This document shows positions 2,663-22,687 of a stretch of 31,323 nt of DNA, in pieces. The DNA is from a virus. The translations under genes were made by a program, and so were the position numbers. The stretch lies in IMG/VR virus record IMGVR_UViG_3300050821_005301, positions 1 through 31,323 of that record; one strand, 5' to 3'. Numbering within the stretch: the first letter of the stretch is position 1; each line of letters starts with the position of its first letter. Under the pieces are notes generated by a model. That model had not been told where the DNA came from. It searched no databases and saw only the letters and a list, made by a program, of their open reading frames with translations.

Positions 2663-3661
2663 ATGAAATTAGCTCACTTCCGTACGAACACAATTCTCTC
2701 TGGATGGTCTAATCTTGCAATCGCACAAACCCTTAGAGATATAGGGCATAGATGCCTATTGGGAGCAATCCCGGTAGATTGGAGCGGGGCCGTCCGCTAT
2801 AAGCTGGCGCTGGCAGAATATGAGCGGATCATTACCGAGATGCCAACAATCGGGCAGCTCGCGGAATGCGATGCAGTTCTAGTCTCCGGACCAGAGTACA
2901 TTTTCAAATGGCTGGAACAACTTTATGGTTCGGCATGGAAAAGCAGAGTGATGTCTGGCCGCCCGGTGATCGCATTTCACATGGAAAGCTCCGTGAGAAA
3001 GGATCGCTCCTTCAACTTCGAGGCGGCGAAGCAATGGGCCAATGTTCACTATTATCCCGATCCTCGGGATGCCGAGCGATTCAAAGGGCTCTGGCAGAGG
3101 CCGGCGGTTGATCTCTTTTGGTTTATGCCGTTGACTAATCAGGAGAAGCGTCTTGATGTTGGATTCGCCGGGAGCCTCTATTCTTCTCGCTCCAAATATC
3201 TTGAGGCGCTGATGCCCCATATGCAGGGAATTGAATTCCGAACCGGGTTCCCGATGGCTGCAGACATCTTCGGAGAGATTCATACTAGTTGGGTGAAAAA
3301 CTATTTATATTCAATAGCTTCCATGAAAATTCACCTTTGCCTACCATCGAACAATTCCAGCTTCGATGTGGGCCGGGTCTATGAAACATTGGCGGTGGGA
3401 ACGTTCTGTCTCGCACCATTTCCTGACAATCCTTCGGACCTCAAAGATAAGCAGCATCTGTGCCGCTATGTATCGCCTGAAGATGTCGCGAAGCAGATCC
3501 GCCATTACCTCGCTGAGCCCACAGAGCGCCAATTAATCGCATCGATCGGGCATGAATGGGTCAAGAAAAACTGCGATCTGCGCCTGGTGCTGGAGCGAGT
3601 CCTAGAGGAGTCCGTCCCCGGCTATTCCTCGCCTGAACTGATTTCCAAAGAAAATGCTTGA
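2663..3661 (+). CDS. Glycosyltransferase, CgeB/GT4-like C-terminal domain
   Basis: 332 residues from ATG 2663 (MKLAHFRTNTILSG). An in-frame ATG at 2600 would cover the divergent control region. The N-terminal Rossmann-like part contains LAECDAVLVSGPEYIFKWLE. The C-terminal part (about residues 210-320) matches the Glyco_trans_1_2/CgeB pattern: MKIHLCLPSNN, F-D-V-G-R-V-Y-E-T-L-A-V-G, Y-V-S-P-E-D-V, then a helix with L-I-A-S-I-G-H. Such enzymes use nucleotide sugars. A phage could use one on host surface sugar, phage DNA or virion protein; the target is not shown. It is the first gene of the rightward block. Confidence 0.75.
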   Translation: MKLAHFRTNTILSGWSNLAIAQTLRDIGHRCLLGAIPVDWSGAVRYKLALAEYERIITEMPTIGQLAECDAVLVSGPEYIFKWLEQLYGSAWKSRVMSGRPVIAFHMESSVRKDRSFNFEAAKQWANVHYYPDPRDAERFKGLWQRPAVDLFWFMPLTNQEKRLDVGFAGSLYSSRSKYLEALMPHMQGIEFRTGFPMAADIFGEIHTSWVKNYLYSIASMKIHLCLPSNNSSFDVGRVYETLAVGTFCLAPFPDNPSDLKDKQHLCRYVSPEDVAKQIRHYLAEPTERQLIASIGHEWVKKNCDLRLVLERVLEESVPGYSSPELISKENA

Positions 3662-3734
3662 CAAGGTGTGCTAAGATTCTTTTCATCCAGCCGAACATAA
3701 CGCGCCTGTGTCTCTTCAGGCTGGCCCGCGGTAA

Positions 3735-4166
3735 GTGGCCCGATATGGAGGAATCCCCATCTCAAGGCCACGCATCCGGCGCTCCGGCGCTGCGCTCGTT
3801 CCCCTTTACAGCCAAAACGGATATCGTATTCGCACGATCTCGCGCCAAGAAGCAATGGACCTCCTGGAGACCGAACAGGCGAAATTCATGCGCGACGCCT
3901 CCGGCAGGTGGTTCAAGGATGAGCGGATTCAGCTCGCGGAACTCGTGCACTCCCCGGCAATGGGAACTTCCAATTCGGACTCCAGCCCGGCCGGGATCGT
4001 CGCCCGCGAGATGCGGGCCCAAGCGGATTGCCGATGCGGCGGCCGCGAATCCTGCAAATGCTCTCTAGGAATCCGGCGCTCACGCAATAAGGTTCTCGCA
4101 TGGCCATCGATCGGCGGCCTAAAAACTTTCCAAGGACACCTACCATGTCTCTCCTCTCAATCGTGA
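3735..4166 (+). CDS. Small phage protein upstream of terminase
   Basis: 143 residues from GTG 3735. The coherent part is Y-R-I-R-T-I-S-R-Q-E-A-M-D-L-L, followed by a helix and strand ending E-R-I-Q-L. This resembles small phage proteins found near terminases in which S-x-x-E-A-x-x-L-L is followed by a variable strand and I-x-L. The C-terminal part has CRCGGRESCKC, a possible metal site, and overlaps the next gene by 22 bases. A competing +1 frame across 3658-4068 is Pro/Arg/Ser-rich and looks like a shadow. Function unknown. Confidence 0.55.
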   Translation: MARYGGIPISRPRIRRSGAALVPLYSQNGYRIRTISRQEAMDLLETEQAKFMRDASGRWFKDERIQLAELVHSPAMGTSNSDSSPAGIVAREMRAQADCRCGGRESCKCSLGIRRSRNKVLAWPSIGGLKTFQGHLPCLSSQS

Positions 4167-4354
4167 AAGTCAATTTTCATTTCGAGCGCGGCGGCAAAGC
4201 ATCCGAGCATCAGTATGATTTTGTTGGGGTTAGCGCAATATCAGAAGCTAACATCAAGACTGTGCTCTTAAACAACAATCGCACGCGTCCAACCGGAGCA
4301 GTTGTCGTAATCGACTCGGTTGAAAACGCGCACACTCAAATCCTAGTGGCCTGA
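4145..4354 (+). CDS. 69-residue beta-strand protein, paralogue of 4394 gene
   Basis: Starts at ATG 4145 with AAGGA nine bases upstream. It begins MSLLSIVKVNFHFERGG and ends GAVVVIDSVENAHTQILVA. The alternation of strands and the D-S-V-x-N-A end are shared with the next gene (KVDSVSNASTGAVWV), so the two look like diverged copies. A compact beta-rich fold is likely. Function unknown; position just upstream of the terminase suggests a packaging or head accessory role. Confidence 0.66.
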   Translation: MSLLSIVKVNFHFERGGKASEHQYDFVGVSAISEANIKTVLLNNNRTRPTGAVVVIDSVENAHTQILVA

Positions 4355-4364
4355 TTTAATCTCC

Positions 4365-4382
4365 CGGCATCCAATGATGCCG
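4365..4382 (+). promoter_or_regulatory. Hairpin between paralogous genes
   Basis: CGGCATC (4365-4371), loop CAAT, and GATGCCG (4376-4382) form a perfect 7-bp stem. GAGG at 4382-4385, the likely ribosome site of the 4394 gene, begins in the last stem base. No U-run follows on either strand, so it does not look like a classic terminator. It may tune translation of the next gene or stabilise RNA. Confidence 0.5.
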
Positions 4383-4393
4383 AGGTTAAAAAC

Positions 4394-4699
4394 ATGGACC
4401 ACCACAAAAGCTCACAGAAAGCTCACACCATGAGCGACAATTCAAGCGCTTCAGTTGCGGTTGCCGAAGAGAAGCCAAAGAAACCAGAACTCCGGCTTTA
4501 CAAAGTCTCCTATCATGAGGAGAATAATGGAGTTGCAATTTCTGGCAGCCACAAATCAGCGCTGATTGTCGCCGCGGCGGACGATCATCACACAGCCGTC
4601 CCGGAGGTCATCACGCGCAACTCCGATCCGCTCCCCGAAGGAGCCTCTATCAAAGTCGATTCGGTTTCGAACGCCAGTACCGGGGCAGTATGGGTTTAA
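4394..4699 (+). CDS. 101-residue protein, paralogue of 4145 gene
   Basis: Starts at ATG 4394 eight bases after GAGG; a second ATG at 4430 (MSDNSSASVAVAEEKPKK) is possible. Residues 1-35 form a polar, disordered N-terminal arm rich in Ser, Lys and Glu. The rest (LRLYKVSYHEENNGVAIS to the end) repeats the strand pattern and D-S-V-x-N-A motif of the upstream gene. Probably a virion or assembly accessory; no family recognised. Confidence 0.64.
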   Translation: MDHHKSSQKAHTMSDNSSASVAVAEEKPKKPELRLYKVSYHEENNGVAISGSHKSALIVAAADDHHTAVPEVITRNSDPLPEGASIKVDSVSNASTGAVWV

Positions 4700-4702
4700 A
4701 GC

Positions 4703-4891
4703 GTGCCCGCAACTTCTAAGGCCCAACAACAAGCAATGGCCATTGCCGAGCACGAGCCGGACAAGCTCTACAAGCGCAACTCCGGCCTGCTCAACATGAG
4801 TCATCAGCAGTTGCATGACTTCGCTGCAACATCAACAAAGGGACTGCCGAAAAAGAAACCATCGCCAAAGTCCTTCTATGGTGAAAAATAG
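4703..4891 (+). CDS. DUF3008-like small protein with C-terminal FYGEK tag
   Basis: 62 residues from GTG 4703. The N-terminal MPATSKAQQQAMAIAEH and the later HDFAATSTKGLPKK match the pattern of DUF3008-type phage proteins (M-P-A-x-S-x-A-Q-Q ... L-x-x-F-A-x-T-x-x-x-G-L-P), which usually end just after the Lys-Pro stretch. Here a basic spacer KKPSPKS and then F-Y-G-E-K-stop have been added. The same ending recurs in other genes up to 7401. Its TAG overlaps the GTG of terS by one base. Function of the family is not established. Confidence 0.72.
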   Translation: MPATSKAQQQAMAIAEHEPDKLYKRNSGLLNMSHQQLHDFAATSTKGLPKKKPSPKSFYGEK

Positions 4892-5358
4892 TGAGCCTAA
4901 AGGACTTACCAGACAAGAAGCAGCAATACATCAAAGAGCGGCTCGCCGGTAAGTCCAAGACTCAGGCCGGAGTCGATGCAGGCTATTCCTTCGCGACAGC
5001 TCGCAATGCCGGCCATGCGATTGAGACGCCCGATGTCCGGCGCGAGTTTGCGGCCGCGATGCGGCGCCGAATCTCTGCTGAGAAGATTGCGGAGACAATC
5101 GAAGCAGGATTGAGCGCGATGGAAACCAAGTTCTTTCAGAAGGATGGGAAGATTGTCGACACTGCTGACGTCATTGCGTGGGGAGAGCGGCGACAATATG
5201 CGGCCCTGGCGGCTGAATATGGCGGGTACTTTGTGCCGCGCAAAGAGGTAGATGTCGACGTCGCAGACGATTCAGCGGCCGGAGAGGTTATACGGCGGGT
5301 TCTCCAAAGCGGAGATCCGGGCACAACTCCCCCGGCTGACGTCAGCCCAGAAAGTTGA
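4891..5358 (+). CDS. terS: Terminase small subunit
   Basis: 155 residues from GTG 4891. Residues about 5-45 (KQQYIKERLAGKSKTQAGVD, then A-G-Y and T-A-R-N-A-G) form the helix-turn-helix found in small terminase subunits that recognise the packaging site. A helical region follows (EKIAETIEAGLSAMETKFF), suited to ring oligomerisation, then an acidic, Pro-rich tail. Length fits the family. It lies directly before the terminase ATPase gene and overlaps it by 107 bases. Unlike its neighbours it has no FYGEK ending. Confidence 0.8.
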   Translation: MSLKDLPDKKQQYIKERLAGKSKTQAGVDAGYSFATARNAGHAIETPDVRREFAAAMRRRISAEKIAETIEAGLSAMETKFFQKDGKIVDTADVIAWGERRQYAALAAEYGGYFVPRKEVDVDVADDSAAGEVIRRVLQSGDPGTTPPADVSPES

Positions 5359-5983
5359 GCTTGCGGCCGCCCTTGAGGCAATTGAGCGGCGCTATATCGA
5401 TGAAGATTGCGCGGTCGACCCGCTGTATTGGTTGCAGAATCATACAGCTACAGAGAATCCACATTATCTGAAGCAGGGGCTTGAGTTCAAGTCTCCTTTT
5501 CCGCGGAAGTCATATTTCATCCCGGTGTTTGAGGCTTTCACTTCGCACCGACGGCTTTTCATCCCGAAGACTCGGGAGATGCTGACGAGCTGGTGTGTAA
5601 TGGGATGGGCCACGCATATGGCGCAATGGCAGCGGGCCTTTTCGGTTGTCCAAGCACAGAGCGAAGATAAAGCCTTTGAACTCGTGGCTTATGCCTGCCA
5701 ACTGTATGATAATCAACCGGATTGGTTGAAGCGCAAGCATCCACTGAAGCAGCCATACTCGAAGCAGGAAATCGAGTGGGCCGGCGGTGGGCGCATCTTC
5801 GGACTGCCTAAGGGCGCGGATAAGCTCCGAATGCACCATCCAACCATCTACGTAATGGATGAGGCCGCTTTTTTGGATGAGGCGGAAGCATGCTACAATG
5901 TGGCGCATCCGGTCGCGCAGCAGATCATCGCGATCTCATCGGCCGGTCCAGGATGGTTTGGGGATCAGTGCCAGCGGTTCTAA
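5252..5983 (+). CDS. terL: Terminase large subunit, N-terminal ATPase half
   Basis: 243 residues from ATG 5252. A deviant Walker A lies near residues 104-114 (IPKTREMLTSW), Walker B at 198-205 (TIYVMDEA) and the coupling motif at 227-234 (AISSAGPG). This is the packaging motor ATPase. Family members normally continue into an RNase H-like nuclease for 450-600 residues in total. Here TAA at 5981-5983 ends the protein right after the ATPase core. The nuclease half is encoded separately at 7548-8510, with five small genes and a gene relic between. Either two polypeptides assemble or the RNA is processed; see findings. Confidence 0.85.
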   Translation: MSTSQTIQRPERLYGGFSKAEIRAQLPRLTSAQKVELAAALEAIERRYIDEDCAVDPLYWLQNHTATENPHYLKQGLEFKSPFPRKSYFIPVFEAFTSHRRLFIPKTREMLTSWCVMGWATHMAQWQRAFSVVQAQSEDKAFELVAYACQLYDNQPDWLKRKHPLKQPYSKQEIEWAGGGRIFGLPKGADKLRMHHPTIYVMDEAAFLDEAEACYNVAHPVAQQIIAISSAGPGWFGDQCQRF

Positions 5984-6058
5984 TGGTGCCAGCCAGCGGC
6001 GAAGAAAGCTAATCCGCGACTGAAGCGTGTTTTCAAAGCCTTTTATGGGGAGAAGTGA
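5984..6058 (+). pseudogene. Orphan FYGEK-ending reading frame behind terL-N stop
   Basis: In the same frame as the terminase ATPase half, directly after its TAA, codons read WCQPAA then KKANPRLKRVFKAFYGEK and TGA (6056-6058). No ATG, GTG or TTG start lies in this frame. A different frame opens at ATG 5983 (TAATG overlap with terL-N; MVPASGEES then TAA), and a one-base shift would join it to the FYGEK frame. So this is a stop-readthrough tail of the ATPase half, a frameshifted mini-gene, or a sequence error. The match to the other FYGE(K/R) endings is clear. Confidence 0.55.
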
Positions 6059-6282
6059 TGGAGTGCTTGGCGTTTGCATTGTGGTTTGTTACGGGATATT
6101 TTCTTGGTAGAGCATCGCGTTCTTCGCGGCAATCTCAGCGACAGCCCATCCAGAAAATGCCCATGTCTCCATTTATGGACGGGTTGATAAATGGAATGGG
6201 AAGCGCCGGAGCTAAAGTCGCTCAAGCGTCCTCGCAATGGCAGAATGAAAGTTTCTTCAAAGACTTCGCGAGGTGGCCATAA
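6058..6282 (+). CDS. Small single-pass membrane-anchored protein
   Basis: 74 residues from ATG 6058, behind GGGGAGAAG, which is also the codons for the preceding G-E-K. Residues 3-18 (CLAFALWFVTGYFLGR) form one hydrophobic helix followed by a basic stretch (RASRSSRQSQRQ) and a polar tail. It lacks the FYGE(K/R) ending. It lies inside the interval splitting the terminase. No family recognised. Confidence 0.6.
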   Translation: MECLAFALWFVTGYFLGRASRSSRQSQRQPIQKMPMSPFMDGLINGMGSAGAKVAQASSQWQNESFFKDFARWP

Positions 6283-6714
6283 ATGTCGCCAATACTTCCG
6301 AAGGAATCGAGCTTTTACGGAAAAGCTAAAGGGCTAGCGAACCAAGCGGCGGAATGGCTGGCAACTGTTGGTCAGACTCCCGAGCAGAAAGCCGCACACC
6401 AGGCGCAACTCGCCGCCGGGGCGCAAGCGGCAGCGGACAACAATGCGGCTCTGGGCGATCTCGCGCAGTATAACACTGGAATCGTGAGCCGGTTCGGGAA
6501 TAGCGGGGCCGCGCCGCAGGCGAGTCCGACGCCAGCGCCTTCTTATGGCCGTGGTACGGCAAGAGTTCCAGGGGAGCGCGGGAAGCCACAGCGGGCGATC
6601 GTGCATGGCGCGGAGGGTATTGTGCGCGGGCCGGTGGCGGCCCGGAGCACATCAGCCATTGCCAAGGCGAATGCTCATCCGAAGAAAGGGAAGCTATTCT
6701 ATGGCGAGCGCTGA
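6283..6714 (+). CDS. FYGER-tagged Ala/Gln-rich protein
   Basis: 143 residues from ATG 6283, immediately after the upstream TAA. The N-terminus carries a related motif (KESSFYGKAKG, residues 7-17). An Ala/Gln-rich helical part follows (AAHQAQLAAGAQAAADN), then a Pro/Gly/Ser-rich linker. It ends A-K-A-N-A-H-P-K-K-G-K-L-F-Y-G-E-R. The ending parallels the orphan tail at 5984-6058 (K-K-A-N-P-R). Low complexity suggests a flexible virion or assembly protein; function unknown. Confidence 0.7.
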   Translation: MSPILPKESSFYGKAKGLANQAAEWLATVGQTPEQKAAHQAQLAAGAQAAADNNAALGDLAQYNTGIVSRFGNSGAAPQASPTPAPSYGRGTARVPGERGKPQRAIVHGAEGIVRGPVAARSTSAIAKANAHPKKGKLFYGER

Positions 6715-6916
6715 CGTTTATACTAAGCTGAAGAATAAGGCCGTTCAAGCGCCAGCAGATGGCCCGAGCGGTGGTCAAGGGTTGGTCCTGAATTGGCAGG
6801 TTCCCCCGCCCGGACCGAACACTCCGGCGGACAATTCCATGCAGATTCAGGATTTGAGCCAGCAACAGCCGAAGCCAGCGCCAAAGAAGCCCAAGCCATT
6901 CTACGGTGAGAAGTGA
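6701..6916 (+). CDS. FYGEK-tagged 71-residue protein
   Basis: Starts at ATG 6701, inside the FYGER codons of the previous gene (14-base overlap). The N-terminal half begins MASADVYTKLKNKAVQAP. The C-terminal half is Pro/Gln-rich, ending KPAPKKPKPFYGEK. The product looks mostly disordered with a basic proline linker before the tag. No family recognised. Confidence 0.68.
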   Translation: MASADVYTKLKNKAVQAPADGPSGGQGLVLNWQVPPPGPNTPADNSMQIQDLSQQQPKPAPKKPKPFYGEK

Positions 6917-7401
6917 GCTTCAGAGATCAGCAGCAACATCATCACAAGCTCCGCGGCATGCAACAAGCCCTCCGCTCCGAAAAGACGCCAGGGCATTTGA
7001 AACCTCACATCCGAAAGGCAATCGAATCCATGAAAAGCGTAAAAGGTCAGCCGATTACGGGAGCCGCAAGCGAAATGAAGCCGGCGCGGCGAAGCATATT
7101 CAATGGGCCGGAGACCCGGCAGGCCGAAAATCAGATTGCCGCTCCGCCGCAGCCTTTCCAGCAGCCAAACTCCGCCGCGAATGCTCCGGCGCCGGCTGGC
7201 CCAATTCCGAATGCTGGCAACTTCGGAATGAAAGGCGGATCTTCGCCTATGACCTCAACCAATCCAACGGGGAACGGAATCCCGGGCCACAATGACAAAG
7301 TGGTTGGCGGCCGGCTAGGGACTTCGCATCCGAAGCGCATCGGCAATCCGCACAATCAGCCCCAGGCGCGAAAGCGCAGCTCATTCTACGGCGAGAGGTG
7401 A
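6913..7401 (+). CDS. FYGER-tagged 162-residue protein
   Basis: Starts at GTG 6913, overlapping the upstream TGA as GTGA, behind GGTGAGAA (the G-E-K codons). Residues 1-45 are helical and basic (QQQHHHKLRGMQQALRSEK; HIRKAIESMK). The middle is Pro/Ala/Asn/Gly-rich and the end is QARKRSSFYGER. Longest of the tagged set. The globular N-terminus with a flexible linker and terminal tag suggests a scaffold or recruitment role, which is inference. Confidence 0.7.
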   Translation: MSFRDQQQHHHKLRGMQQALRSEKTPGHLKPHIRKAIESMKSVKGQPITGAASEMKPARRSIFNGPETRQAENQIAAPPQPFQQPNSAANAPAPAGPIPNAGNFGMKGGSSPMTSTNPTGNGIPGHNDKVVGGRLGTSHPKRIGNPHNQPQARKRSSFYGER

Positions 7402-7404
7402 GAA

Positions 7405-7551
7405 ATGAGAGGTAATCCCTTACACCTGATTCTGATAGTCTTGGCGCTCCTGCTCTTAGCGCTCGCCGCGATCCCGAGCGCGGTTGGTTCGCCTAAAATC
7501 AACTTCGGCTGGGCTGGCATGTTCTGCCTGGCGCTCGCCTATTTGTTCTGA
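7405..7551 (+). CDS. 48-residue two-helix membrane protein
   Basis: Starts at ATG 7405 behind AGAGGTGAGAA. Two hydrophobic stretches, LHLILIVLALLLLALAAI (residues 6-23) and the C-terminal MFCLALAYLF, flank an Asn-Phe-Gly-Trp-Ala-Gly turn. The layout matches a very common class of about 45-50 residue hairpin membrane proteins in phages and bacteria. Its TGA (7549-7551) overlaps a CTG that appears to be the start of the terminase nuclease half. Confidence 0.68.
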   Translation: MRGNPLHLILIVLALLLLALAAIPSAVGSPKINFGWAGMFCLALAYLF

Positions 7552-8510
7552 TAGAGCATCCCGGCATTGAGCAGTGGGAGAATGCCTCGGGCATTCACAT
7601 TCTCCGGCTGCACTATACAGCCGATCCGGAGAAAACTCCGGAGTGGGCCGCCGCGCAAAAAGCGGGCATGACGGACAAGGCCCTTGCCGAGCAAGAATAT
7701 GAGATCAAGTTCGACGCGAAATTGGGAACGCTACTCTATCAAATGGACGATTCGGCTACCCTTGAACCGTCATTCCCAATCCCGCACGATTGGACGCGCT
7801 ACATGGCTTTGGACCCGCATCCTCGAGTGCCTCACGCATTTCTTTGGGCTGCGGTAGATCCATGGGGCGATGCTTATATTTATCGGGAACTGTGGATGTC
7901 GAAGATTTATGGCAAGCCCGGGAACGTGCCAGAGGACGATTACCGTTTCCGGATCAAAGAATACATCGAGACGGTCCAATGGCTGGAATCAGCGGCCAAT
8001 AAGGACAATGGCGGGAAGAAAGAGAAGATCCATCTGCGCGTGATCGATTATGCGGCGCGTGCTTTCCGCGACACTACGGACTCCGAAGATCAACGGAACC
8101 TGCAGGAGCGGTATGAGGACTGGAGTCGCCAGCCAATCTATGGGCAGCCGCCAATGTCCTACCCGCTGAGCTTCGCGGATTGCATCAAAGACCGAGAGGC
8201 CGGCGCTGAAGTGGTCAACGACTGGCTGAAGCCGCGGCAGGTTGAAACCTCGAATGGCTGGAAATACAAGTCCAAGCTGCATATCTTCCGGGATGCGTGT
8301 CCGGAGTTGCTATTGCAGTTGCGGACGAATCGATTCGGGACGCTTTCACCGGCAATGGCTGAGAAAATGGACCCTCAATCGAAGGCGCTGCAGAAGCGCA
8401 ATCACTTGACGGACTGTTTGAAGTATCTTTGCATGGAAGGCTTGCGATTCGTGCCGCCGGTTGGACCGCCGAGCACTTGGAAGCCTATTACGAAGGGAGT
8501 GGCCTACTGA
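7548..8510 (+). CDS. terL: Terminase large subunit, C-terminal nuclease half
   Basis: 320 codons if started at CTG 7548. The frame opens after TAA 7494-7496 and has no ATG, GTG or TTG before ATG 7668. Family-typical sequence (WENASGIHILRLHYTADPEK) begins upstream of that ATG, so a 7668 start would remove conserved residues. RNase H-like acidic residues are D89 (YMALDPH), D167 (LRVIDYAA) and D289 (NHLTDCLKYL), counted from CTG. This domain cuts concatemer DNA at initiation and termination of packaging. CTG lies in a CTGA overlap with the upstream gene, suggesting reinitiation after termination. RNA splicing from 5983 is an alternative. Confidence 0.82.
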   Translation: MIEHPGIEQWENASGIHILRLHYTADPEKTPEWAAAQKAGMTDKALAEQEYEIKFDAKLGTLLYQMDDSATLEPSFPIPHDWTRYMALDPHPRVPHAFLWAAVDPWGDAYIYRELWMSKIYGKPGNVPEDDYRFRIKEYIETVQWLESAANKDNGGKKEKIHLRVIDYAARAFRDTTDSEDQRNLQERYEDWSRQPIYGQPPMSYPLSFADCIKDREAGAEVVNDWLKPRQVETSNGWKYKSKLHIFRDACPELLLQLRTNRFGTLSPAMAEKMDPQSKALQKRNHLTDCLKYLCMEGLRFVPPVGPPSTWKPITKGVAY

Positions 8511-8869
8511 TGAACTGGCGAAGGCTGTATGAGATCACGAAGAAGCATTGCGAAGAACTGGAGCGCGAGGTTGTCGCTGCGGTTCATTCGGCGGAAGTGA
8601 AAATCAGAGGCGGAGTTCCGGTTGACCATCCTTCGCATTGCGGGCAATTCGGTATTCTCGCTGGTATGACTGAAGGTAGTCGCTGTCTCGAAGATCCCCC
8701 AACAGTCTCAGATCATCCCCAAGTAACCAGCGAACCGGATGATCTTCAAAAAGACCTCGCGGCTCTGGCCGAAATGAGGCATCCAGGGCCCGGCGAGCCA
8801 TGTTGCGAAAATGGCATCTTTGGAGATTCGCATCTCTGTATGAAAACAGCCTCCATCAGAATCCGGTGA
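8510..8869 (+). CDS. 119-residue protein between terminase and portal
   Basis: Starts at ATG 8510, overlapping the terminase TGA (TGATG). The N-terminal helix (RRLYEITKKHCEELEREVV) is amphipathic and coiled-coil-like. The C-terminal region has several Cys and His residues (CCENGIFGDSHLC) that could bind metal. A long 3' overlap exists with an upstream start option of the portal. No family recognised; position suggests a head assembly accessory. Confidence 0.58.
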   Translation: MNWRRLYEITKKHCEELEREVVAAVHSAEVKIRGGVPVDHPSHCGQFGILAGMTEGSRCLEDPPTVSDHPQVTSEPDDLQKDLAALAEMRHPGPGEPCCENGIFGDSHLCMKTASIRIR

Positions 8870-13691: not shown

Positions 13692-14837
13692 ATGGCAGAT
13701 ATAACCGAGGCGATCACGCAAGACCAAATTGCGGATTCGCTATTGTCTCCCATGGACCAAGGCGAGCAGACGGAAGGTCCAGCCGGACCCGAGGCCGAAC
13801 AGCAAACCGAAGTCCAAGAGCTTGACGCGCAGCCGGCGGAAGAGCAAGAACAATTCGAGGAAGATGGCGAGGACTGGCTCCCAAACGAGCAATCCAAGGT
13901 TTTTCCTCAAGAGATCATTGCCAAGTACGCGCAGCGTTACGGTTATACGGAGGAGCAAGTAGCGGCTGACCCACAGCTCGCAAGAGTGCTCCATGACAAA
14001 ATCAACTCTGACATCCTGATTCAGCGCAATCAGCAGCAACAGCAGGAAGCAGCGCGAGAGCAACAGCAGCAGCCAGAGCAGAGACCCACTCAGCAGACGC
14101 CGCAGCAGATTCCTTTCGCGCAATGGCAAGAGAATGCCCGCCAATTTGTGCGGCAAATCGGTCTGAATAGCCCGGAGGTGGCGAAAGCCTTCACTCAGGA
14201 ATTCATGGGCGCATTTGGCGTGCAAAATATTGACGGAGTGAATGCCGAGAAGTTCACGGAAGTCATGAGCATATTCGGTCTGAATCTCCTCAATACGGCC
14301 ATACCGCTCCTCATGCAAGCTCCAAGCGGAATCGAAGGCAAGACAATGTTCCAAGCATTTGCCGAGCAATCGTACCAGGAACTACCAGCCCTGAACGAGC
14401 GTGCGACATATGCCAATGCCTGGGATTCCGTTGTCGAATCAAATCCAGCCTTTGCCAATCTCCCGGCATTCGGCACGAAGCAGTGTGCTCAGCTCATGCG
14501 CGCAGCTGCGGACTCTCTTCCCGGATTTGACGCTGACACCTTCGCGGAGATGCGGTTCTCTGGCCCGGACGGACGGCCACTCTCGAATGCCGATAACAAC
14601 CAGAAAAAATATGCAATTCTCGCTCAGGTTGCGATCGGCCAACAGCCAAATCCTGCCATGATGGCCAAAGCGGTTGAAACAGGAAAACGCCTTGCTCGCC
14701 AAGCGGATGTCAGAAAATCGGCGGGGAACCTCGGGGCCGGCAAATCCAATATTCAGGGGATGCCAAAGAGTACTGCCAATGACGATATCTTTGCGGAAGG
14801 TTTAGCCATCTACAAAGGTGAGCATGGGCGGCTCTAA
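13692..14837 (+). CDS. Scaffold / capsid assembly protein
   Basis: 381 residues from ATG 13692. The N-terminus is strongly acidic and Glu/Gln-rich, followed by a Gln-rich helical stretch (near residues 115-145). Then come helical segments and a basic C-terminal region (GKRLARQADVRK). Acidic, coiled, low-complexity proteins immediately before the major capsid gene are typically head scaffolds, whose C-terminal basic helix contacts the capsid protein. No protease is seen in the window. The assignment rests on position and composition. Confidence 0.72.
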   Translation: MADITEAITQDQIADSLLSPMDQGEQTEGPAGPEAEQQTEVQELDAQPAEEQEQFEEDGEDWLPNEQSKVFPQEIIAKYAQRYGYTEEQVAADPQLARVLHDKINSDILIQRNQQQQQEAAREQQQQPEQRPTQQTPQQIPFAQWQENARQFVRQIGLNSPEVAKAFTQEFMGAFGVQNIDGVNAEKFTEVMSIFGLNLLNTAIPLLMQAPSGIEGKTMFQAFAEQSYQELPALNERATYANAWDSVVESNPAFANLPAFGTKQCAQLMRAAADSLPGFDADTFAEMRFSGPDGRPLSNADNNQKKYAILAQVAIGQQPNPAMMAKAVETGKRLARQADVRKSAGNLGAGKSNIQGMPKSTANDDIFAEGLAIYKGEHGRL

Positions 14838-16679: not shown

Positions 16680-17185
16680 TGGCACTCTGCGGGAATTGCG
16701 GGGCGGCGGCGCCCCGCGTCAAGACAATTTTTACCAAAAATGGCATTTTATTGCCGATACCGAAAGACGAATGTCCGGTTTGTGCCCCGCAGAGCTTTGA
16801 GCCGGCTCCCGATCCGTCAACGCGGAAAATCTGGATTGGCCCGGAATACATGCCGAGCCGCTACCGCAAAAAGACCGATCATCTTGGAGACTATTACGAA
16901 GGAACGGACGAACTGCGGGCCGATACTGAGGACGCAATCTCTCGCGGTGCAACCGATGAAACGGAAAAGCTGGAGCGCATGAAAGCGCAAAAGCGGCTCA
17001 ATCGACGGACGGCTCCATTGAAGTCTGGCAGCGTCGAGCATTTCCAAGCCATTAACCGAGCGCGGGAAGTAGCAAAGAACCTCGAAGATACTCACAAGCA
17101 GTATTATGACCAAATGAAAGAAGCGGAAGCGGAGCAAGCGCGACAGTTTGCGCACTCACGCTTGCCGCTGGTGCGCGTCAATTGA
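16679..17185 (+). CDS. Zinc-ribbon protein with long charged helix
   Basis: 168 residues. C-G-N-C-G at residues 4-8 and C-P-V-C at about residues 32-35 form a four-Cys zinc ribbon. After it comes W-I-G-P-E-Y-M-P-S-R-Y, then a long Lys/Arg/Glu-rich helix. Similar two-part proteins occur between capsid and tail genes in environmental phages, but I cannot name a family. The end overlaps the next start as TTGA. Confidence 0.62.
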   Translation: MALCGNCGAAAPRVKTIFTKNGILLPIPKDECPVCAPQSFEPAPDPSTRKIWIGPEYMPSRYRKKTDHLGDYYEGTDELRADTEDAISRGATDETEKLERMKAQKRLNRRTAPLKSGSVEHFQAINRAREVAKNLEDTHKQYYDQMKEAEAEQARQFAHSRLPLVRVN

Positions 17186-18141
17186 GCAAAAAATCTAAGG
17201 GAATCAGTGAGGTCGATGCTAAGCGGCTGGCAGAAAAGCTATTTGCTTTCGAGGCCGGGCGCAAAGCCATCTCCGAAATGATTGGAATGGAGATCGTCGA
17301 CAAAGGCCCGGGCCACAAAAAGCCGATCGTTGCTGTGCTCATGCCTTGTTATGACGCCCCGGAGCCGCTGACCGTCAAAGCCTTTGCCGAGATGGTCAAA
17401 GCCTCGCGGGAGTATGCCGCCGTCTATGACGCCTCCAGCCTGAATGGTTCCTCCGTCGTACATTGGACGCGGAATCAGCTTTTGGCCAATCTCATACAGA
17501 GCAAGAAGCCATGGGATTATGTCCTGTTCATGGACGACGACATTGTGCCGGCACCGGACTCGCTCATAAAGCTGTTGGGGCACGGCAAGGACATCATCGG
17601 AGCCGTTTGCACGAAGCGCATTGACCCTCCGGTGCCGAACATCCGGCTTTGGGAAGAGTCGACCGGGAATTTCAAAGAGATCCTTGATTGGCGCGATGAC
17701 GGCCTTTTGGAAGTCGGAGCGGTAGGAACCGGAATGATTCTGCTTTCCCGTCATGCGCTCGAACAGGTGGCGGAGGTTTGGTTTGATGCCCTGGTGGAGA
17801 AAGAGGTCTATGGGATCTCCGATGAAACTGCGGCGCATCTCCGGCGGGAAAGGCTGGCAGCATTCGATGAGAATGGGAATGCGTGGTGGTTTCGCTTTCT
17901 GCCGCACATCCAGCGCGGACATGCGGAGTATGGCGAGGATATGAGCTTTTGCCTCGCGGCGGCACGCTATTGCGGGCTTGGGATCTGGTGTGATACGAAC
18001 GTGCGGCCCGGGCATCTCGGGAAATATCCCTACTCGGTCAACGACTTTCTGCCGTATCAGCGCGAGGTCATTGCGCGCGCGATGAAAGAAGGCCGGGTGT
18101 TTGAGCAAGAGAATCGGGAGAAGATCATCATCGAGCCATGA
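17182..18141 (+). CDS. GT-A-type glycosyltransferase
   Basis: 319 residues from TTG 17182 in a TTGA overlap. The core is GT-A like: K-P-I-V-A-V-L-M-P-C-Y-D, N-Q-L-L-A-N-L, then Y-V-L-F-M-D-D-D-I-V-P, where the Asp-rich DxD-type motif would bind metal and sugar nucleotide. V-G-A-V-G-T-G-M-I-L-L-S-R and Y-G-E-D-M-S-F fit the acceptor-side part. Enzymes of this type transfer sugars. Substrate unknown; being inside the structural cluster hints at virion glycosylation, or host surface change. Confidence 0.75.
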   Translation: MSKKSKGISEVDAKRLAEKLFAFEAGRKAISEMIGMEIVDKGPGHKKPIVAVLMPCYDAPEPLTVKAFAEMVKASREYAAVYDASSLNGSSVVHWTRNQLLANLIQSKKPWDYVLFMDDDIVPAPDSLIKLLGHGKDIIGAVCTKRIDPPVPNIRLWEESTGNFKEILDWRDDGLLEVGAVGTGMILLSRHALEQVAEVWFDALVEKEVYGISDETAAHLRRERLAAFDENGNAWWFRFLPHIQRGHAEYGEDMSFCLAAARYCGLGIWCDTNVRPGHLGKYPYSVNDFLPYQREVIARAMKEGRVFEQENREKIIIEP

Positions 18142-18839: not shown

Positions 18840-20798
18840 ATGCCTAAGCTCGGGGCGATTGAGGTTTTTGAGTTCGGCGGCGTCGACTCGCGGTCGAATC
18901 CGCTCAATATGCCGCAAGGGCGGGCGCTGCGCTGTCTGAATTTCGCACCAAAGCAAAATGGGGAATTGGACCTCCGCTGGGGATATAGCACCGTCTCAAT
19001 GGATACGGTGACTTCGGCGAACAATATTCACACGATCATTCCCTACAATCTATATAGCGGCACGAAGTACCTTGTCTTCGGGCAAGGCGCGGGTCAGATT
19101 TACGCGCTCAACTTGCAAACCGGCGTGCGCTCACAGCCAACAGTGCGCGGCGCTTCGATCTCAGGCAGTCCATTTCAAGGCTACTTTTTCAACAATCGCC
19201 TGCACTTTGGCGATGGGATTCGGGCCGGGAAGTTCTATGACGGAAATGCGATCCGCGACAATGGGCTGCGGGCCTTGAATTCCCTGGACGCTGCGGGCAG
19301 CAGCGTCAGTATAGGAGCGAATGACACACTTGGAATTCCTGCTTCGACGATCGGCGGAAACACGCCCGGCTATCAATTTTTCATGTCCATTTTTAATCCC
19401 CTTACCGGCCATGTCGGTAACCGGATCGCCATTGGAGCCCGGGTTGCGCCTTCAACTGCAAGCGACATCAATATTACCGGCCTGCCCGACTTGTCTGGAG
19501 AGGACACGGAATGGGTTAAGGCCATCGGCCGCACTAACGATGGGGCACTGACTCCCTACTGGATAGTGGATGCAAGCGGAAATCGTATCAGCGCCGGAAA
19601 CACAAATACGACGATCACAATTACGCAATCGGGAATCGATGGCAATTCCGAACTGCCAACACGCAACGGCGTCATTCCATCCGTTTGCAGCATGTTCGCC
19701 ACGGTGGGCGATTATGTTTTTGCTGCAGATACAGGAAGCCCAACGATTCGCAAGAGCGGTTCAGTAGTCGACCAACGCAATGGGATATTCGTTGGCCAGC
19801 CGGAGCAATCTTGGGCTCCAGATGATATTGAGACCTTCCCGACAGCGGCTAATGTTACCGGAATTTTCGAGTATGACTATGAACTGATCGTTGGAACGCA
19901 GCATGATATTGCCGTGCTGACCGATTATGCCGGCGCGCTCCAATGGCGCGGCCCCTGGAATGTTGGAGTCGCCGGCCCGCGGGCCGGATGCAAGACGCCA
20001 TATGGTTTCTATTGGCTGAATTGGGAGCGTCAACTTTGCACCTTCGTTAATGGTCTGCCGGTGGCGATCTCGGAAGAGTATGAGGCGACGGAGTTGTCGC
20101 TTCTCGGATTCGCGGATCTGTCATCCGTCGAAGTAGCCTATTTCCGCGATGCCCAGAAGCAAATCGATGTTCTGGCCATCAAGGGATTTCTAGCGGATCG
20201 CACAACCTCACATATCGTCTATCACGATTTCCGCTTGAGAGATGGGCGGAGCCCATATGGGCAGGGATATGGCGCAACTTATGTCGGAGCGCTGGCAACG
20301 CAGTTCACGATTGCGGCGGGAAGAGATGGAACTGGCAAGCTACGGCTTTTCGCGGGCTGTTCCAGCGGAAACACAGCAACACAAGGGCGCATCTATCAGC
20401 TTTTCGACACAGCCAATGATGCCGGGAATGAGTTCTCTGCCAATTATGTGATGCTCATCAATGGCGGCCCGGAGCGGCCCTCAATTCCGTTTATCGATTT
20501 CTATGGTGACCGGAACGTGCAGATATCGGTTGGGCGAGAACTCGACAATACGACCAGCATTGAGAATTTGACGCCGTTGGACAATCCCGCCCAACAAGTT
20601 CAGGGGCAGGAACACAATTTGCTCTATCGAGCGAAGCTGGCGAAGCCGGAAATCCGCAATGCCTATGTGCAGATCGATTTGGTTTCCCATTCAACGGATG
20701 GCAGCCTCGCGCTGAACACGATTCCGCATTATCCGCTTGAAAGCTATGGGCGCATTTGGGCGATGATCCCGGCAACCGGAGAGACTAGGAACCGATGA
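18840..20798 (+). CDS. Tail tube / stabilisation-like beta-propeller protein
   Basis: 652 residues from ATG 18840, immediately after the upstream TAG; no clear ribosome site. The start (V-F-E-F-G-G-V-D-S-R-S-N-P then R-C-L-N-F and L-D-L-R-W-G-Y) and WD-like strand repeats through the body resemble the podovirus tail tubular or nozzle family, built around a beta-propeller. It follows the connector gene. Probably the main body of the short tail. Exact family is uncertain. Confidence 0.66.
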   Translation: MPKLGAIEVFEFGGVDSRSNPLNMPQGRALRCLNFAPKQNGELDLRWGYSTVSMDTVTSANNIHTIIPYNLYSGTKYLVFGQGAGQIYALNLQTGVRSQPTVRGASISGSPFQGYFFNNRLHFGDGIRAGKFYDGNAIRDNGLRALNSLDAAGSSVSIGANDTLGIPASTIGGNTPGYQFFMSIFNPLTGHVGNRIAIGARVAPSTASDINITGLPDLSGEDTEWVKAIGRTNDGALTPYWIVDASGNRISAGNTNTTITITQSGIDGNSELPTRNGVIPSVCSMFATVGDYVFAADTGSPTIRKSGSVVDQRNGIFVGQPEQSWAPDDIETFPTAANVTGIFEYDYELIVGTQHDIAVLTDYAGALQWRGPWNVGVAGPRAGCKTPYGFYWLNWERQLCTFVNGLPVAISEEYEATELSLLGFADLSSVEVAYFRDAQKQIDVLAIKGFLADRTTSHIVYHDFRLRDGRSPYGQGYGATYVGALATQFTIAAGRDGTGKLRLFAGCSSGNTATQGRIYQLFDTANDAGNEFSANYVMLINGGPERPSIPFIDFYGDRNVQISVGRELDNTTSIENLTPLDNPAQQVQGQEHNLLYRAKLAKPEIRNAYVQIDLVSHSTDGSLALNTIPHYPLESYGRIWAMIPATGETRNR

Positions 20799-22486: not shown

Positions 22487-22687
22487 ATGGGGCAAAATTT
22501 CGGTTCTACCGGACAGCCGCAGCCGCAAAATCCGCAGCAACAGCCGAACGGTTCGGCTAATCCGCTTCAGACAGTTGGACAGCAGGCTCCAGGAAATGGG
22601 TTGTCCCATCTTAATCAGTGGAATAAGCGGCAGAGCGGATATCCGGTCGGGCCGAATCCAGGCCAGATGTTCTTTGGAGGGCAATAA
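22487..22687 (+). CDS. 66-residue Gln/Pro/Asn-rich protein
   Basis: Starts at ATG 22487 with AAAAGG seven bases upstream. The N-terminal part is Gln/Pro/Asn-rich (GQPQPQNPQQQPNGSANPLQ), and the end is Q-W-N-K-R-Q-S-G-Y-P-V-G...M-F-F-G-G-Q. A short intrinsically disordered virion accessory is likely. The 26454 gene starts the same way (MGQ) and shares composition. The FFGGQ end only superficially resembles FYGEK. Confidence 0.58.
   Translation: MGQNFGSTGQPQPQNPQQQPNGSANPLQTVGQQAPGNGLSHLNQWNKRQSGYPVGPNPGQMFFGGQ

Follow-up and report, generated by a model that had tools for sequence, protein, structure and literature searches.

The window analyzed here is a phage record of 31,323 bases (IMG/VR IMGVR_UViG_3300050821_005301), and on its plus strand, around the terminase genes, lies a set of small genes whose otherwise unrelated products end in the same peptide, F-Y-G-E-(K/R), hereafter called the tag. 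An earlier annotation made from the bare letters (the sequence-only reading) had listed four intact genes and one orphan frame with this ending, and the open reading frame (ORF) translations agree with it. The first gene (4703..4891) has a GTG start, lies upstream of terS, and encodes a DUF3008-like protein of 62 amino acids (aa) ending in SFYGEK. The other three follow one another in the gap of a large terminase gene that is split into an ATPase part (TerL-N) and a nuclease part (TerL-C): a 143-aa protein ending in LFYGER (6283..6714); a 71-aa protein ending in PFYGEK (6701..6916), whose ATG lies inside the tag codons of the preceding gene; and a 162-aa protein ending in SFYGER (6913..7401). 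The orphan frame (5984-6058, plus strand) ends in KAFYGEK, follows the TAA of TerL-N directly and in frame with it, and has no in-frame ATG, GTG, or TTG start; it is probably the remnant of a deleted tagged gene. The sequence-only reading described tagged genes as surrounding terS and filling the split terminase, which holds as the location of this cassette; a further tagged gene, the fifth of the window and missed by that reading, lies outside it on the same strand (22487..22687), in the tail/ejection region downstream of the capsid and tail genes, and encodes a 66-aa Gln/Pro-rich protein ending in GQMFFGGQ. The label "ejection region" derives from gene order and composition, and family searches named none of its proteins.

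The tag stands apart from the domains that precede it. The DUF3008-like call for the 4703 protein is borne out by a match to PF11450 (E=6e-6, above the curated cut-off) that stops at residue 52, before the tag; the family to which this protein belongs (tagged family 3) has five other members among relatives. The 6913 protein belongs to the most conserved tagged family (family 0), with 28 distinct tagged members in relatives, and the 6283 protein had no homologue among the remaining tagged proteins. The latter does carry the additional N-terminal FYGK attributed to it, as SSFYGK at residues 9 to 14; the motif might, then, act away from the C terminus too.

Spread and conservation of the ending

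A search with the major capsid protein yielded 13 close relatives at 78 to 83% identity, and a few more were added later. All 12 close relatives with both terminase halves carry tagged proteins in the insert between the halves, with endings that include FYGE, FYGER, FYGEA, FYGEF, FYGDA, FFGDN, FYGK, and FYGR. In total, the window and its relatives, all of them uncultured phages, contain 88 distinct tagged proteins in ~18 families (a count in which unclustered ejection-region proteins entered as one family) that are mutually dissimilar after removal of the tag; the largest have 28, 12, 7, 6, 5, 4, 4, 4, and 3 members. DUF3008 and DUF6496 are the only names that could be assigned to them. At least one insert tag is present in 30 of 32 nonredundant genomes, and in the other two (L149 and L150) a resembling protein ends in LLYGD. 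Within the stretches examined, the insert carries 0.95 tags per kb, compared with 0.07 upstream of TerL-N and 0 downstream of TerL-C. One additional small tagged protein is encoded in the tail/ejection region of every tag-bearing genome for which the scan was complete or almost complete; in G033-G035, which have a split terminase without insert tags, no convincing tagged protein was found in that region.

Chance was estimated by cutting the same proteins at random internal positions. The test set comprised 1019 ORFs from the window and 12 phage records that are complete or nearly so; 24 of these ORFs terminate in F[FYWM]G followed by 0 to 4 residues, compared with 1.5 +/- 1.4 expected (maximum of 6 in 200 draws). 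These counts are approximate, because the ORFs were selected mechanically and a number of genuine tagged genes are not among them. A blind scan of 2.9 million viral contigs for A-F-Y-G-E-stop returned 20 stretches, and a plausible tagged small basic protein was present only in L111 and L117, members of a clade farther removed from the window that shares the split terminase. Stricter scans of the same contigs for K-x-A-F-Y-G-E-stop and K-x-A-F-F-G-E-stop matched nine contigs, six of them split-terminase phages and three with frames of fewer than 30 codons and no terminase or capsid matches. Plausible cases of the strict form (with a TGA stop) thus occur only in this lineage within the 2.9 million contigs, and tags are restricted to the inner part of the split-terminase clade. 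Two proteins resembling the 6913 protein (L121 5527-5988 and L125 9572-9991) end in AFMGDFGGRPRGM and AFFGDFGGRPKHLKG, a tag-like motif followed by about ten residues. Searches of INPHARED by tblastn with tagged DUF3008-like, SKAQ-type, and DUF6496 proteins gave nothing useful, and no description of the tag was found in the literature (open PMC set).

The conservation lies in the peptide rather than in the DNA that encodes it. Among the 88 tags, Phe at position 1 and Gly at position 3 are fixed because the search required them; Tyr (60) outnumbers Phe (28) at position 2, and Glu (49) is the commonest residue at position 4, ahead of Gly (18) and Asp (8), giving a consensus (A/S)-F-(Y/F)-G-(E/G/D) after a basic or Pro/Gln-rich spacer. 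Synonymous codons are used at the tag near the phages' own rates (TTC, 0.61 versus 0.68; TAC, 0.57 versus 0.61; GGC, 0.34 versus 0.43), with GAG somewhat preferred (0.65 versus 0.48), which fits a minor contribution from ribosome sites. Since codons are at background usage, selection acts on the tag peptide, with a ribosome-site share that is small at most. Unrelated families also agree in their tags more often within a genome than between genomes, both over the whole tag (0.26 versus 0.09; p=0.001) and at position 4 (0.52 versus 0.34; p=0.001), as evaluated by permutation of genomes within families. Codon identity for the same tag residue is hardly higher within genomes (0.48) than between them (0.42), so that the within-genome agreement is held at the peptide level; it suggests one shared partner. 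The sequence-only reading had asked whether orthologues lack the ending and whether a ribosome-site DNA element alone could account for the matches; orthologues in related phages retain the ending, and the synonymous variation and within-genome peptide agreement uphold its view of peptide-level conservation with freely varying codons.

The two-gene terminase

The untagged terminase small subunit (4891..5358, plus strand) was identified by a match to phrog_641 (E=3e-5), with Terminase_2 below the cut-off, and its start overlaps the stop of the preceding tagged gene. TerL-N (5252..5983, plus strand) ends just after SSAGPGWFGDQC, as it does in all clade relatives; its AlphaFold model (pLDDT 91) has T4 gp17 as the best Foldseek match (E=4e-11; TM 0.67). 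TerL-C (7548..8510, plus strand) comprises the linker and nuclease half, with conserved Asp residues; its model (pLDDT 80) matches the D6E terminase and the P22 terminase nuclease domain with E about 1e-5. Its likely start is a CTG (7548-7550) that overlaps the preceding gene; CTG apparently also serves in L050 (8784), and ATG, GTG, or TTG is used in relatives. The calls of terS and of a split terminase made from the letters were therefore right, and, as judged from the structure models, the large terminase is encoded as separate ATPase and nuclease genes, a split that is conserved. The two halves may assemble into a working motor. No description of a two-gene terminase of this kind was found in the open PMC set.

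In all 12 close relatives with both halves, the split is at the same residue, with about 1.7 to 5.4 kb between the halves. A TerL-N profile scan returned 59 loci (a scan with the single protein gave nothing useful). Throughout the clade that extends from the window to L164, every TerL-N ends 0 to 19 residues past the aligned coupling motif, and TerL-C, where in reach, occupies a frame of its own at a distance of 66 bases to 5.4 kb; the more remote TerL-N homologues are mostly intact. The halves overlap by ATGA in L162, and a single small gene lies between them in L164. Like the terL genes interrupted by group I introns, this large terminase coding sequence is in pieces with other sequence between them. 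Those pieces are rejoined by RNA splicing, whereas here each half has its own stop and start, and no match to Rfam at gathering score, group I introns included, was found in the window and 15 related loci; this result and the overlapping halves of L162 led us to reject an intron interruption. In a tree of the N-terminal halves, the split loci are placed apart from the intact ones, but support at this node is low (0.52) and the base includes two doubtful loci, L165 and L167, that were classed as split. These two distant loci outside the clade (L165 54-913 and L167 4914-5465) look interrupted after the ATPase part.

The basal members of the clade have a split TerL and no tag in the insert. The split is probably older than the tag, and the order that fits best is split, then insertion of genes at the gap, then tag. 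If the split came first, the terminase does not seem to need the tag, and a requirement for the tag in joining the terminase halves was rejected on the basis of these basal members. Possibly the gap serves as a homing site, and this could account for the origin of the split. By eye, the genes right after TerL-N in L053 (~3633-3800), L074 (5814-6251), and L122 (4914-5267) resemble LAGLIDADG or HNH homing endonucleases. A methyltransferase-like gene (phrog_13505, phrog_27021) and a gene that looks histidine phosphatase-like by eye occupy the gap in 12 of 13 genomes compared (examples are found in the L044-L055 inserts, as in L052 at 4008-4607 and 5355-5885). The window has lost both and retains its tags, and the idea that the tag recruits either enzyme was discarded for this reason.

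A possible docking signal for virion cargo

Outside support for a role in the virion comes from a tagged family with homologues in many phages outside the clade. The only significant PDB match of this family (family 2) is to residues 281-333 of crAss001 gp45 (PDB 7qog chain M), with E=2.6e-4 for the profile and 1.2e-4 for a single member. The gp45 protein is cargo protein 1 of the crAss001 virion. A segment of it comprising residues 425-552 was resolved on the portal wing and another (214-245) in the tail barrel, and its peptides 275-300 and 307-320 were detected by virion mass spectrometry (PMC10172136). Both peptides overlap the family 2 domain. In gp45, AFGG comes directly after this domain; another AFGG (residues 425-428), which opens the portal-bound segment, comes after a second stretch with a likeness to family 5 by eye (E=0.085, not significant), and the C terminus reads KKKKGLTYG. 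Family 5 itself matches a 75-aa protein encoded between the protease and capsid genes of the crAss-like phage cr10_1 (E=2e-11) and a 609-aa protein of cr108_1 (E=4.6e-11) that, by eye, shares the AFGGW...DDYVFS segment of gp45; a search of PDB with the family 5 profile gave nothing useful. The likeness to gp45 thus consists of a family 2-homologous domain followed by AFGG in a proven cargo protein bound to the portal and tail barrel, whereas gp45 is one protein of 842 aa rather than many small ones, and its motif has a single aromatic residue and is mostly internal.

We give about an even chance to the reading in which the C-terminal tag is a transferable docking signal for virion cargo. Through the tag, a wide range of unrelated small proteins would bind the same partner within the virion as it assembles, with the portal or inner tail, the capsid interior, and the scaffold as candidates; the tagged proteins would travel as virion cargo and be ejected into the next host, and the gap of an already-split ATPase/nuclease terminase would house most of their genes as a variable cargo cassette. 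We hold more tentatively the general form of this proposal, that any small protein gaining F-[Y/F]-G-E is loaded into the particle and that new cargo genes accumulate in a cassette within a permanently two-gene terminase. A shared docking or encapsidation signal had been suggested from the letters, and the retained endings, the peptide-level agreement, and the gp45 parallel make it the best reading; the special tie to the packaging motor that was suggested along with it finds no support, given the basal members that have a split terminase without an insert tag.

Several observations weigh against the cargo reading. The family 2 homologues in Tunturi_2 and JustBecause end without the tag, so in those phages the domain can do without it. 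A single aromatic residue, not a pair, is present in the crAss motif, and [F/Y]G[G/E] is marginally enriched in gp45, with 23 of 500 shuffles reaching the same level. Family 2 is absent from the window, and the link to the window proteins therefore runs through the tag; the families that are present in the window gave no match to gp45 or other crAss-like proteins. The within-genome agreement may partly reflect common descent of related genomes. Finally, presence in the virion, the identity of the receptor, and ejection are parts of the reading that we infer.

The main rival, unlikely in our judgment and yet the strongest of the alternatives, is that the tagged proteins are takeover or regulatory factors and that the tag brings them to a single nonvirion target, for example an enzyme of the host or of the phage or a protease adaptor. 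Tagged proteins that are small, basic, and of no known function would suit it, and peptide conservation with within-genome agreement fits any shared partner. Against it stand the homology between family 2 and a domain of a virion cargo protein and the presence of a tagged gene in the tail/ejection region, and the methyltransferase and phosphatase of the insert are excluded as partners by the window that lacks them. A processing or degradation signal, with the ending either marking a protease cleavage site at or close to F-[Y/F]-G or determining protein stability, would also produce a short conserved C terminus that is shared by unrelated proteins and agrees within a genome. We consider it improbable and found no support for it: the residues after Gly vary in type and number (0 to 4), about 10 residues follow Gly in the family 0 proteins of G017 and G019 if their AFMGD/AFFGD is the motif, and family searches recognized no protease beside the tagged genes.

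Below this we rank the possibility that the ending is a by-product of a DNA element, whether a GGNGA ribosome site serving the following gene or a seam that recombination has copied from one gene end to another. It draws on a possible start within 25 nt of the stop in 84 of 88 tagged genes, on starts that overlap tag codons in the window, and on the preference for GAG over GAA. No ribosome site requires the invariant Phe or a Tyr/Phe second position, however, and TerL-N and the phosphatase-like gene, which also have overlapping starts, have no such ending. Codon usage near background for Phe, Tyr, and Gly, taken with the invariant Phe, led us to reject a ribosome-site element as the sole cause, and within-genome codon identity barely above the between-genome value led us to reject recombinational copying of gene ends as the main one. 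Least probable is that the tag serves the split terminase itself, with tagged proteins bridging or regulating TerL-N and TerL-C. Most tagged genes do lie between the halves, but the untagged inserts of the basal members and the tagged protein in the tail/ejection region argue against such a service.

Short targeting sequences are known in other particles. In T4, internal proteins share a short capsid-targeting sequence that directs them into the head, and a foreign protein fitted with it is targeted as well (PMC9958956). The tag resembles it as a short sequence shared by several proteins; the T4 sequence differs in being N-terminal, ~10 residues long, of other sequence, and confined to a few proteins of one phage, and its function is proven, whereas that of the tag is inferred. 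In all 88 proteins the tag is C-terminal, with the internal FYGK near the N terminus of the 6283 protein as the one additional copy. Family 1 encapsulin targeting peptides are short C-terminal peptides that dock unrelated cargo inside an HK97-fold shell (PMC8346489), and the tag shares with them its size, its position, and its occurrence on unrelated proteins. Their consensus is SDGSLGIGSLKRS and not F-[Y/F]-G-E, their cargo is enzymes, and the shell is not a phage particle; the tag consensus does not conform to SDGSLGIGSLKRS. The logic of the tag appears comparable to that of both signals, with a sequence different from either.

If the cargo reading is true, small lysine-rich phage proteins such as DUF3008 and DUF6496, so far unexplained, gain a testable role, and sequence alone would suffice to catalogue the cargo genes of an entire phage group. 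Like the T4 targeting sequence, such a tag could also be exploited to load proteins into phage particles. A large terminase that naturally consists of two proteins would allow ATPase-nuclease coupling to be studied with separable parts.

Other genes of the window

The cassette also contains untagged ORFs on the plus strand, namely, a 75-aa protein (6055..6282), for which family searches gave no family, and a small hydrophobic protein at the cassette end (7405..7551). A search of PDB with the 18840-20798 protein gave no useful match, portal searches in INPHARED and PDB were uninformative, and comparison of the capsid profile with genome contigs found no host assignment. The phage encodes a major head protein (phrog_1328) and a putative scaffold protein (13692-14837), and a glycosyltransferase-like gene (17182-18141; phrog_12406, E=3e-5) lies among the virion genes. 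An untagged family of small proteins marked by '...YHFE...VIDSV' (family 6 of one comparison) occurs as tandem copies upstream of terS (4100-4354 and 4394-4699); in the L050 insert, the same family is represented by three adjacent genes (7462-8787), one of which encodes 286 aa.

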